Below, in pieces: positions 19,185 through 26,692 of a stretch of 41,013 bases of DNA (the first letter of the stretch is position 1; each line of letters begins with the position of its first letter). The stretch comes from Phycisphaerales bacterium (GTDB lineage: Bacteria; Planctomycetota; Phycisphaerae; UBA1845): positions 1 through 41,013 of the forward strand of contig JABFSN010000142.1 of NCBI GenBank assembly GCA_013140575.1, given 5' to 3'. The translations under genes were made by a program, and so were the position numbers. The notes under the pieces are model-generated. The model was given only the letters and a program-made list of their open reading frames with translations. It searched no databases and was not told where the DNA came from.

Positions 19185-19258
19185 TGGGCCCACGAGGACT
19201 CGAACCTCGGACCTCGTCGTTATCAGCGACGCGCTCTAGCCAACTGAGCTATGAGCCC
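19185..19258 (-). tRNA. tRNA-Ile (anticodon GAT)
   Basis: On the minus strand the 74-nt gene begins GGGCTCATAGCTCAGTTGG and ends GTGGGCCCA. The acceptor stem GGGCTCA pairs with TGGGCCC, with one T-G wobble. The D-arm has AGCTCAGTTGGCTAGAGC, the anticodon loop is CTGATAA (GAT), and the T-arm carries GGTTCGAGTCC. CCA is not encoded (TCCC follows), so the end must be added enzymatically. It is a stand-alone isoleucine tRNA, not within an rRNA spacer. Confidence 0.95.
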
Positions 19259-21383: not shown

Positions 21384-21632
21384 CGGGTCACGATGATTCG
21401 ACGCGCTGGATGCCCCGTTCAGCGTGCAGCGATGCGGCGACGTATATGTTATCGGGTCACGATGATTCGACGCCGCGACGACGGGGCCCGGCAGTGGTCG
21501 TCGATCCACGTGACCAATCCAAAACTCCTCGCAACGAATGCAATCGAACGCGTTGCGCGCGTGGACGCCACCCGCTCCGTCCGATCATCGCGACCCTTCC
21601 CGTTGCAATCGCGAAGAATGGGCCACCCCGGC
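21384..21632. repeat. REPIN-like dispersed repeat, degenerate copy
   Basis: The right end (21582-21632) contains CGATCATCGCGACCC and GAAGAATGGGCCACCCC, as in the intact copy at 24601-24650. Toward the left the 18-mer CGGGTCACGATGATTCGA occurs twice (21384-21401 and 21453-21470), matching the inner edge of the left arm of that copy. The middle (21493-21580) shares a body with 23347-23435. Confidence 0.6.
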
Positions 21633-21710: not shown

Positions 21711-21953
21711 GTGACCTATCGTGGACGCGTCCGAAACGGCGTAATCGTTCTGGACCAGCCGGGCATATTGCCGGAGGGCGCTGAGGTCGAAGTGCTGCGC
21801 AAAGCCGTGCATTCGCCGGAGGAGTCGTCGGAGAACGGTTCGGGACCCACCTGGGCGGAAGTGTTCGCGGATATCACCGGCAAGGCCGAGGGCCTGCCCC
21901 CGGACCTTTCCCGCAATCACGATCACTACGTCCACGGCGCCCCTCGGCAATGA
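21711..21953 (+). CDS. Antitoxin-like small protein (partner of PIN toxin)
   Basis: An 80-aa protein from GTG 21711, with AGGAG about eight bases upstream. It begins VTYRGRVRNGVIVLDQPG, followed by LPEGAEVEVL. This short beta-rich opening is typical of the DUF104/AF2212-like class of VapB antitoxins. The helical rest (PTWAEVFADITGKAEGLPPD) would wrap the toxin. It overlaps the PIN gene by ATGA, the standard arrangement for a toxin-antitoxin pair. Antitoxins of this kind neutralise the toxin and repress their own promoter, here probably at 21662-21690. Confidence 0.75.
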   Translation: MTYRGRVRNGVIVLDQPGILPEGAEVEVLRKAVHSPEESSENGSGPTWAEVFADITGKAEGLPPDLSRNHDHYVHGAPRQ

Positions 21954-22363
21954 CCCCCTGTTTCGCCGACGCCTATTACTTCCTCGCATTGCTCAATCCG
22001 CGCGACGAAGCCCACGCGGCGGCCGTCGCGATCAACCGCGGACTGCGTCGCCCGCTGGTGACCAGCGCGTTCATTCTCATGGAAGTCGCGGACGGATTGG
22101 CAGGGACGCCCGGCCGCGCCCTCTTTCGCCGACTGCACGAGAGACTGACGAACGACGACCGCGTCACCCTTGTTCCGCCGACCGCGGCTATTTTCGACCG
22201 CGCCGCGACCCTCTACGCATCACGCGCCGACAAAGCCTGGTCGCTCACCGACTGCACGTCATTTGTGATTATGGAAGACCGCGGCATCCGCGAAGCCCTC
22301 ACCGGCGACCACTATTTCGAGCAGGCCGGCCTCGTCGCCCTGCTGAAACCCCGGACTCCATAG
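21950..22363 (+). CDS. vapC: PIN-domain ribonuclease toxin, VapC-like
   Basis: A 137-aa PIN protein. The four acidic residues of the Mg2+ site are present: D7 (CFADAYYFLALLN), E45 (FILMEVADG), D101 (WSLTDCTSFVIME) and D120 (EALTGDHYFEQAG). VapC toxins cleave tRNA or rRNA and arrest growth when unopposed. Its ATG overlaps the antitoxin stop (ATGA). The pair sits between repeat copies, so the module may have moved as a unit, though there are no clear borders. Confidence 0.88.
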   Translation: MTPCFADAYYFLALLNPRDEAHAAAVAINRGLRRPLVTSAFILMEVADGLAGTPGRALFRRLHERLTNDDRVTLVPPTAAIFDRAATLYASRADKAWSLTDCTSFVIMEDRGIREALTGDHYFEQAGLVALLKPRTP

Positions 22364-22378
22364 AGTCGCCGGTTGACG

Positions 22379-22472
22379 GACGCAATCGTACGCGTATCGC
22401 GCGTGAACATCGCCTGCATCGTTCGATCGTCGCAACCCCGCCCTTTGCGATCGCAAAGAATGGGCCACCCAG
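22379..22472. repeat. REPIN-like dispersed repeat, right half only
   Basis: Begins CGCAATCGTACGCG and ends with the hairpin CCCTTTGCGATCGCAAAG then AATGGGCCACCC. It matches the right arm of 24400-24650 and the body of 21493-21632. It lies directly after vapC and could serve as its transcript end. Confidence 0.55.
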
Positions 22473-22640: not shown

Positions 22641-22730
22641 CATGGCCGCGGCTTGGGGCGTGCAAGACGGGCGCGCCTGCGTTTTCTAGTTTCCAATCTC
22701 TAGTTTCAAGTTTCTAGCGTGTGGGGTCCG
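22641..22730. repeat. 90-bp repeat, copy 1
   Basis: Starts CATGGCCGCGGCTTGGGGCG and includes TTTCTAGTTTCCAATCTC and TCAAGTTTCTAG, ending GGTCCG. A second copy of the same length and order is at 23248-23337. Confidence 0.65.
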
Positions 22731-22732
22731 GG

Positions 22733-22820
22733 GCCGAACGCTCATTTCACGGAGGCCGATCGCTCTTTTCATTGAGACCGAACGCTCATTTCACTGAGGC
22801 CGAGCGCTCTTTTCTTTGAG
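22733..22820. repeat. Four 22-bp tandem repeats
   Basis: The units at 22733, 22755, 22777 and 22799 each read (G/A)CCGANCGCTC(A/T)TTTCANNGAG with small changes, the last with TTTCTTTGAG. A partial fifth unit (GCCGAAGGCC) leads into a palindromic block. The repeats are contiguous with no spacers, so this is not a CRISPR. Confidence 0.75.
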
Positions 22821-23030
22821 GCCGAAGGCCTCCACGTTCGTAGCCGGGGGTCAAGCGCAGCGCGACCCCCGGATGGGGAACGTGAAAACAGATTCCACGC
22901 CGAAGGCGTGATCGTCATTACGACGACCCCGTCGGGGTCGGATTCCCCGCGGGCGACGTTTCGGGGGTGTCGGTCGCTCCCGCGACCTCCACCCCCGGCT
23001 ACGGACGAACAGGCCTTCGGCCTGAAGGAT
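22820..23030. repeat. Nested palindromic repeat block
   Basis: GTAGCCGGGGGT (22840-22851) is mirrored by ACCCCCGGCTAC (22991-23002). Inside are further hairpins: GGGGGTC/GACCCCC, ACGCC/GGCGT around GAA, and GACCCCGTCGGGGTC. Outside, AGGCCGAAGGCCT and AGGCCTTCGGCCT flank both sides. The block could fold into one large branched hairpin. No gene. Confidence 0.65.
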
Positions 23031-23040
23031 CGCACGGGCG

Positions 23041-23110
23041 ACTCGCGGGTGCCCCACCCCGTCCCAGGGGTGGGGCACCGATCTTTAAGCGACCGGGTCA
23101 CGCCGATTCG
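23041..23110. repeat. Palindrome resembling the REPIN left arm
   Basis: GGTGCCCCACCCC and GGGGTGGGGCACC form a 13-bp hairpin, followed by CGGGTCACGCCGATTCGA. This is the same order of parts as the left arm at 24400-24448. A related hairpin (CCCCCACCCC ... GGGGTGGGGCACC) follows at 23216-23248. Confidence 0.5.
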
Positions 23111-23247
23111 AAGCCTCTCCGAACGGGGAGCTGAATCATCTCGGCACTGACGAATACGATTCCCGCGGCCGAGTCCGTGAATCGCGTCGTGGCGACCACG
23201 CCGGCACGTCGGCGTCCCCCACCCCAGGAATGGGGTGGGGCACCCGC

Positions 23248-23337
23248 CATGGCCGCGGGTTGGGGCGTACAGGATGGGCGCGCTTGCGATTTCTAGTTTC
23301 GAGTTTCCAGTCTCAAGTTTCTGGAGGGTGCGGTCCG
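23248..23337. repeat. 90-bp repeat, copy 2
   Basis: CATGGCCGCGGGTTGGGGCG to GGTCCG, collinear with 22641-22730 and of equal length; differences are scattered single bases. Confidence 0.65.
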
Positions 23338-23346
23338 CGGCGGGGC

Positions 23347-23484
23347 GTGGTATTCGATCGGTGCTGCCAATCCACGACGCCTCGTGACGAATGCAATCGT
23401 ACCCGTTGCGCGTGTGGACGTTGCTGGCATCGTTCGGTCATCGTGCCCCCACCATTGCTATCGCAAAAGATGGGCCACCCGGCC
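23347..23484. repeat. REPIN-like dispersed repeat, body plus right arm
   Basis: GTGGTATTCGATCGGTG ... ACGAATGCAATCGTACC ... then TTGCTATCGCAAAAGATGGG and CCACCC. It is collinear with 21493-21632 over about 140 bp. No gene between vapC (22363) and the next gene (23515). Confidence 0.6.
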
Positions 23485-24399: not shown

Positions 24400-24650
24400 C
24401 GGGTGCCCCATCCGTCGCGCAGCGATGGGTGGGGGCACGATGATTCGATCATGGAGAATCGCCGCAGTGCATCGCAACCGACGCTTCGCCCCCGAGCGCC
24501 GTCAGCGGCGACCCTTGTCCCCTGTCCGTCGTGGAAAGCGGCGTCTGCGGCGGTCTGTCGGCGCATTCCGGTCACCGCCCGACAGAAGCATTTCGCCCAC
24601 TCGATCATCGCGACCCCACCCTTTGCTATCGCAAAGAATGGGCCACCCGG
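24400..24650. repeat. REPIN/MITE-like element with ~49-bp inverted arms
   Basis: The left arm (24400-24448) reads CGGGTGCCCCATCC ... GGGTGGGGGCACGATGATTCGA. The right arm (24601-24650), read on the minus strand, is CGGGTGGCCCATTC ... GGGTGGGGTCGCGATGATCGA. Each arm is itself a hairpin (GGATGGG-type and CTTTGC/GCAAAG-type). So two REP-like palindromes sit in inverted orientation around a ~150-bp core, the layout of a REPIN. It fills the gap between two minus-strand genes. No transposase in the window. Confidence 0.65.
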
Positions 24651-26242: not shown

Positions 26243-26692
26243 TCACGCCCCAATCGTCGCGCTGGCCGTTTCCGACCACCCGTGACACCCCGCCAAGACG
26301 CGTCGCTGCGCGACGGCGAGCTTCGCTCGCGACGGGTCGTCAAGGGCAGGCGGGCCTTTGTCGCCGCGGGTGGAGACCCAGCGGAGCATGTAGTGAGCGG
26401 TCTTGTTGCCGTCGGCACCGGCGTACTCGGCGGTGTAGGGGGTGCGGCTGTCCAGCGCCAGGAACGTACACTGGTTGGGATCGGTGGGGGCGGGGTCGCC
26501 GATCTTGACCCAGATTTCCGCGCCCATGACGCCCGTCCCGACCAGAAGCGGAGATTCCCGTCCGCCGATGACGTCCGACTCGACCATGGCGGAAGAGCCT
26601 ACAGGCGACGGGGCCGTAAGGCAATGGTGACGCGCACGAATTCCACCCCGGCTTTTAGGGTGTTTACCCCCATCCGAGAGCCCCGTCGCCAT
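26243..26692 (-). pseudogene. Remnant of a planctomycete surface-protein gene (C-terminal end) with in-frame palindromic insert
   Basis: The frame ends with a recognisable C-terminal module: GAEIWVKIGDPAPTDPNQ, FLALDSRTPYTAEYAG, HYMLRWVSTRGDKGP, and finally WSETASATIGA. As I know the family, GP and WSETASATIG are adjacent. Here about 24 residues (PALDDPSRAKLAVAQRR...) separate them, encoded by ~72 bp with palindromes (GCGAGCGAAGCTCGC and CGTCGCGCAGCGACG, read on the minus strand). The N-terminal portion of the normal protein is missing and the first ~35 codons are unlike it. I regard it as a decayed fragment; a short expressed protein is not excluded. Confidence 0.55.

Follow-up and report, generated by a model that had tools for sequence, protein, structure and literature searches.

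Insertion sequences of the IS200/IS605 type combine an HUH-Y1 transposase with hairpin ends. The described systems closest to the element reported here are the REPIN with its RAYT (REP-associated tyrosine transposase, HUH-Y1) and the TIRtron. In the parts of PMC8049555 used here, RAYTs are described as genes that are inherited vertically, occur in a single copy and are not self-copying. According to the consulted sections of PMC6006769, most TIRYTs belong to subclass 2.1, and all of these carry C-terminal HTH domains. The same sections describe TnpA-Y1 class 3, found mainly in Planctomycetes, Acidobacteria and Proteobacteria, as resembling both insertion sequences and REPtrons and as possible evolutionary intermediates. 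Three closely related class 3 genes are reported there from Solibacter usitatus, and flanking hairpins are abundant.

The window, meaning the whole 41,013-nucleotide stretch analysed here, contains at 24400-24650 an inverted doublet that is very probably a non-autonomous REPIN/MITE-type element of a RAYT transposon family in Planctomycetota. The layout of a REPIN or small MITE had been proposed for this segment from the letters alone. It is supported by recurrence of the arms in the genome and by their inward-facing pairs. The following features make up the element:

24400-24650, no strand: REPIN-like inverted doublet (alpha arm, spacer of about 152 bp, beta arm), based on BLASTN, covariance model R1 and arm alignment
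24400-24448, plus strand: alpha arm with CGGGTG, a long hairpin, an apical stem of the CCATCGC/GCGATGG type and the inner motif GATGATTCGA; R1 69.4 bits
24449-24600, no strand: spacer, common to the copy on contig C223, with no convincing similarity to a RAYT gene
24601-24650, minus strand: beta arm, inverted, with CGGGTGG, a hairpin, the apical stem CTTTGC/GCAAAG and the inner motif GATGATCGA; R1 75.9 bits

As predicted, the two ends are inverted and can be aligned over about 49 bp. Positions 24400-24449 and the reverse complement of 24601-24650 are identical in 39 of 50 aligned columns, and this arm-versus-arm score is reached by none of 2000 dinucleotide shuffles and none of 500 random 251-bp segments of the window. 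Each arm also folds alone as ssDNA, at -14.3 kcal/mol (z -2.58) and -8.9 kcal/mol (z -2.88), with 1 of 200 shuffles equally good in each case. The two hairpin arms do form an inverted pair, but they are not equivalent, one being of the alpha and the other of the beta type. As a single ssDNA, the whole element is predicted to fold into a cruciform with two side hairpins. Contig C223 carries another copy of this spacer type (79% over 229 bp, BLASTN).

The original prediction depended on the arms recurring in the genome, and they do. The whole element has at least 24 BLASTN places at E≤0.001, a lower bound from the best 40 of 88 candidates, and R1 has at least 43 places at E≤0.1, a lower bound from 150 of 4252 candidates scored. 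The copies are diverged (77-98%, BLASTN). An exact-gap pattern for the left arm matched just 3 places and was discarded as too narrow. Singlets and inverted doublets were counted from 28 seed arms among the 43 R1 rows; two more rows are partners of seeds, the 13 weakest were not seeds, and one seed (C229) is close to a contig end. An inward-facing partner within 350 bp accompanies 10 of the 28 arms, with scores of 36-120, and 18 have no partner above threshold. Across all 28 seed arms, scores do not exceed 29 for outward partners and 32 for direct repeats. Simple arithmetic gives about 0.05 such pairs expected from 28 arms in 5.05 Mb.

In the relative G032, 43 arms are present among the matches listed, and 20 of them make ten inward-facing pairs. 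By that count 23 arms are single; one of these (C234:6431) is matched as a whole doublet by BLASTN, and a contig end truncates another (C261:64). Such numbers of single arms in both genomes (18 of 28 and 23 of 43) would suit a local origin of the doublets, by inverted duplication or by recombination between single arms, without movement of the doublet. This explanation is nevertheless highly improbable, because the outer length of the G032 doublets is nearly constant (133-139 bp, 10 of 10), all ten are of alpha-beta composition, and copies on different contigs of the window's genome have spacer sequence in common. The ten G032 doublets also have common ends, GGTG to CACC, and their flanks are unrelated, since none of the 170 inter-copy matches lies entirely outside the element. 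By their ends, length and flanks in G032, and by the spacers in the window's genome, the doublets were dispersed as a unit. We infer that the element moved here as well. The only empty-site search, of G032 against its congener G002, gave no listed row that spans an element.

The terminal inverted arms, small size and dispersed copies are also what a MITE moved by a DDE transposase would display, with the arms as its terminal inverted repeats. This is extremely improbable, since no target-site duplication was detected among 11 copies (summed best match 30, null mean 28.3, 140 of 300 permutations as high; the left boundary lies some bases too far out in two copies), and the arms fold as hairpins and bound an HUH-Y1 gene. 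We retain the RAYT-family assignment.

Arms were typed by their apical stem, CCATCGC/GCGATGG for alpha and CTTTGC/GCAAAG for beta. All 20 doublets typed in the two genomes join alpha with beta, ten of ten in the window's genome (by best-scoring consensus, with a weak partner on C106) and ten of ten in G032, from which 20 places (10 doublets and 10 single-arm stretches) were fetched apart. Nine single G032 arms were typed, 7 as alpha and 2 as beta. Three units of the relative G016 are also alpha plus beta. Since the doublet copies are related, these counts are not independent. The alpha/beta rule is not absolute, because a RAYT unit of the relative G021 has alpha at both ends and several other RAYTs, read from their flanks, have an identical stem on both flanking arms.

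The alignment of 21 arms from the window's genome fits one long hairpin, with 89.7% of cells paired against a shuffle mean of 85.3% (0 of 500 as high), and 38-58% when the alignment is slid. Measures counting pairs or types were not above shuffles in this alignment (421 and 465 of 500 as high). The positions that change on both sides belong to two pairs. Most of these changes trace back to the one alpha/beta difference and cannot be counted as separate events. Columns 4-7 of alignment A1, inspected for the GT[AG]G foot, read GTGG in 9 of 11 beta rows (GGGG and CTGC in the others) and in 3 of 10 alpha rows (five GTGC, one GTGT and one ATGA in the others). When 15 natural elements were folded whole as ssDNA, 0-38 of the 48 left-arm positions paired with the other arm, with some such pairing in 13 of 15, versus all 48 positions in 30 of 30 homodimer controls. 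Local hairpin pairs are retained by both arms in 12 of 15 elements and by neither arm in three G032 copies. The alpha/beta difference may be kept so that side hairpins remain, a model weakened by these three exceptions. The consistent pairing offers a concrete rule for testing arm recognition.

Arms or halves of the same element had been proposed at four further sites in the window. Three of them, 21384-21632, 22379-22472 and 23347-23484, do contain such copies, whereas 23041-23110 belongs to a different REP family. The repeats at these sites are as follows:

21407-21629, no strand: full copy of a second spacer type, its alpha arm with an extra palindrome; further copies on C157, C192, C17 and C67
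22376-22471, minus strand: partial copy of the second spacer type, comprising its right side with the beta arm and some of the spacer; no inward partner
23046-23247, no strand: REPIN belonging to a distinct REP family (GGGTGCCCCACCCC...GGGGTGGGG); arms of this type also flank an intact RAYT on C159
23387-23481, minus strand: another partial copy of the second spacer type, again its right side with the beta arm and some of the spacer; no inward partner

Besides the element itself, R1 finds arms at 21581-21629 (56.4 bits), 22423-22471 (60.7) and 23434-23481 (63.9), and weak arms at 21407-21469 (20.0), 26250-26282 (17.1) and 23046-23110 (16.6). The segment 23041-23110 is the left arm of the second REP family, whose own inverted pair, 23046-23247, has about 25 bp of spacer in common with the second spacer type. 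A strict pattern for the GGGTGCCCCACCCC family yields 23 matches in the window's genome (two being one hairpin on both strands) and none with the reversed control. These include five inverted pairs of 196-209 bp, and the loops differ between arms in four of the five.

Other features were observed in this part of the window. An ORF at 21950-22363 encodes a PIN domain (Pfam, E 3.5e-9) and overlaps a small upstream ORF; the two lie between repeat copies and look like a VapBC-type toxin-antitoxin pair. A tandem 22-bp repeat (CCGAACGCTCATTTCAC...) occupies 22734-22821, and a 94-bp direct repeat lies near it, at 22641-22734 and 23248-23341. A further inverted pair of 39 nt, 85% complementary, at 22813-22851 and 22991-23029, is possibly a third REPIN-like family. 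A tRNA gene at 19185-19258 (minus strand) is the sole Rfam match at gathering score, and no other known RNA family was found in the window by Rfam.

The window itself was predicted to lack a transposase, and the searches agree with this. All eight Y1_Tnp places in the genome at E≤0.001 are on other contigs, and Pfam gave no transposase family in 18 of the 137 listed window ORFs. In G021 (JADFMZ010000192.1, a Planctomycetota MAG), a 193-aa RAYT lies between two inverted A-type arms (R1 75.2 and 68.3 bits, separated from the gene by about 32 and 59 bp), the whole unit measuring 769 bp. In the window's genome, C152:4994-5149 encodes the last 52 residues of a G021-type RAYT (58% over 52 aa, E 3.6e-13), and an A-type arm at C152:4924-4974 adjoins its C-terminus, 19 bp away. 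A second arm was not found near this remnant, and an intact RAYT with A-type arms was not found in the genome. The expected RAYT flanked by the same arms is thus intact in G021, while the window's genome keeps only the C-terminal remnant with one arm. Weaker RAYT-like places on C113, C192 and C108 (27-35%) have no R1 arm near them among the matches listed. Because the copies in this genome are diverged and the cognate RAYT is a remnant, the family is read as inactive here; without an intact RAYT between A-type arms, it is probably a relic. The RAYT on C159 of the same genome is intact, and its flanking hairpins are of the GGGTGCCCCACCCC type seen in the pair 23046-23247. Another RAYT, on C164 (G000; L031, L172), is flanked by the hairpins GGGTGGCACGGACAACGG...CCGTTGTCCGTG of another REP family, which begins GGGTGG.

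The RAYTs of this group have the expected family features. The motifs E-H-x-H and D-Y-x-H-x-N-P are conserved in 10 of 10, and the six RAYTs given to NCBIfam NF047646 (REP_Tyr_transpos) all score above its cut-off. The best solved relative is 4er8, TnpArep (E 1.1e-14). In vitro cleavage by TnpA-REP has been assayed in PMC8266576. The G021 RAYT falls under the IS200 model cut-off, at 22.7 bits versus 55.

In 30 of 32 loci of the clade (the two others being L214 and L245), an inverted repeat across the RAYT gene outscores every one of 100 shuffles, and in 25 of 32 it does so strongly, at 36 or more. These 32 loci were drawn from 80 of 168, leaving out fragments and most rows below about 30% identity, and 9 of them are the same records as loci of the RAYT search that found the C152 remnant. 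In 20 of the 25 strong loci, GGGTG occurs among the first ten letters of the upstream arm; L229 is not counted here, as its aligned stretch starts inside the arm. These arms bear on the idea that the repeats are a host regulatory or structural DNA or RNA element, such as a terminator or processing site, spread by recombination next to RAYTs that are incidental. Intergenic hairpins can indeed act in RNA, as REPs are reported to do in the cited part of PMC8049555. A host element is still very improbable, because the inverted repeats bound the RAYT genes of the clade, RAYT fragments sit between such arms, and Rfam gives tRNA only in the window. A RAYT-family element remains our reading.

Full-length RAYT rows at 46% identity or more come from Planctomycetota or Phycisphaerae MAGs, except L215, whose Alphaproteobacteria label may be a binning error. 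In the 80 RAYT loci, R1 has 48 matches at E≤0.1, mostly weak. Among 60 near genomes, the window's own included, 32 have an R1 match at E≤1e-3, with the best 100 candidates scored per genome, and part of these matches are probably related arm types. Among 294 genomes drawn evenly from the phylum, the window's genome alone has R1 matches at E≤1e-6. As 20 candidates were scored per genome, a depth at which the window's genome itself yields only 20 matches, a restriction of the arms to the family and its neighbours is weakly supported. The contig L252, labelled Candidatus Dadabacteria, holds at 5-235 a RAYT C-terminal fragment (61% over 54 aa) beside an R1 arm of 36.6 bits, reflecting either transfer or mis-binning.

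Internal-deletion derivatives of RAYT units are present in the relatives G016 and CSMAG_2921. In G016, a 529-bp unit on C65 retains RAYT codons 118-188 (77%, one stop), a 197-bp unit on C13 retains codons 118-135 (83%), and a 264-bp unit on C75 retains about 100 bp from each end of the G021 unit (ends 75% and 79%). The units on C75 and C13 have flanking sequence in common (66% over 779 bp), so these two may descend from one insertion; the flanks of the C65 unit are common to neither. The MAG CSMAG_2921 contains three RAYT units with a related arm type, 84-90% identical, whose flanks resemble each other no more than controls do (68-74%, against a control mean of 71% and a maximum of 84%). Two of the units have an open RAYT gene, and a partial tandem precedes one of these; in the third unit the central part of the gene is missing. 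Because these units are similar with unrelated flanks, and one is internally deleted, the RAYT unit of CSMAG_2921, judged from MAG data only, seems to copy itself. Two units in M_MetaBat.71 are 89% identical, with the gene disrupted in both, and the unit pair of OFTM174, at 79%, is within the control range. In CSMAG_2921, another RAYT-like piece occurs about 300 bp beyond the third unit. At L223 1380-2360, the left arm and N-terminus of a RAYT unit are duplicated in front of the unit, forming a partial tandem.

For the window copy itself, a deletion origin is inferred from these relatives, since RAYT sequence could not be convincingly recognised in its spacer (in 8 comparisons, the score was reached by 45-175 of 200 shuffles). 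Eight spacers from the window's genome compared with eight references gave lowest shuffle counts of 4, 7 and 10 of 200 among 64 comparisons, about as expected by chance. A weak RAYT-protein match that spans the entire 24400-24650 (29.3 bits; 0 of 300 shuffles as high) was set aside, as it passes through both arms with a stop and gaps. We take it as chance, yet without explanation.

On the proposed mechanism, the cognate RAYT would cut ssDNA at the CGGGTG foot of the hairpins and move the arm-to-arm unit as ssDNA. RAYT-bearing units would have lost their middle by internal deletion, giving short units still open to mobilisation by the enzyme. In the window's genome the cognate RAYT has decayed to the remnant on C152, so that the A-type copies, the window's included, are probably immobile relics, and the family of the C159 RAYT, exemplified by 23046-23247, may still be served. 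A broader and more tentative reading, to which we give somewhat less than an even chance, is that this RAYT lineage of Planctomycetota (Phycisphaerae-like MAGs) is a working insertion-sequence-like transposon that copies itself arm to arm, and not a domesticated single-copy gene. Its REPINs would then be internal-deletion derivatives, in which the alpha/beta mismatch of the apical stems would be retained because it prevents the arms from annealing as a single long perfect hairpin, leaving side hairpins for the enzyme. Our estimate is no higher because three of the 15 elements folded in silico lack side hairpins, which are predicted for the other 12. This lineage bears on two general questions: how REPINs arise out of RAYTs, and whether domestication is universal among RAYTs. 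Because a RAYT-bearing unit, shorter intermediate forms and the small inverted doublet occur with matching arms across a few related genomes, comparative genomics can be used to test how REPINs originate.

Searches of open-licence PMC articles, including the accessible parts of PMC3116915, PMC3733652, PMC6006769, PMC8049555 and PMC8266576, found no report of RAYT internal-deletion derivatives. Within the same searches, neither the intermediates, nor the multi-copy RAYT units of this clade, nor alpha/beta pairing were found in print. The HUH-Y1 transposase and hairpin ends are shared with IS200/IS605 elements; the inverted orientation of the arms is different. Compared with TnpA-Y1 class 3, whose Y motif ends in Q and whose foot is CnGA in the cited sections of PMC6006769, the RAYTs here have DYxHKNP-type motifs and GGGTG arms. 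The E. coli REPtron with Y and Z2 REPs, as outlined in those sections, also has inverted pairs of two REP variants, with different REP sequences.

The TIRtron, in the portion of Di Nocera et al. (2013; PMC3733652) compared here, similarly has a tyrosine transposase gene (TIRYT) within long terminal inverted repeats. Its repeats are likewise dispersed as singles, dimers and groups, and some TIRs are self-complementary. The G021 arms carry GGGGTCAC, matching the TIRtron consensus GGGGWSAS given there, whereas the arms of several relatives, e.g., GGGGGACGGA, do not fit it. Most beta arms here, though few alpha arms, have a GTGG-like foot, as in REPs and different from the TIRtron. The RAYT of 193 aa is set beside TIRYT subclass 2.1 by the description of that subclass in PMC6006769 only.

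With the REPIN and its RAYT, as presented in the cited parts of Bertels and Rainey (2011; PMC3116915) and PMC8049555, the element shares inverted palindromic REP arms around a spacer, dispersal, association with a RAYT and singlets that are read as decayed remnants. The arms here differ in being about 48 nt long, with a conserved inner motif like CGATGATCGA and apical stems that differ between arms. One MAG contains several related RAYT-bearing units, and in this the lineage differs from the single-copy description of RAYTs in the consulted text of PMC8049555. Overall, the window element works like a REPIN: except for an unambiguous GT[AG]G foot, the REPIN features that were tested are present.
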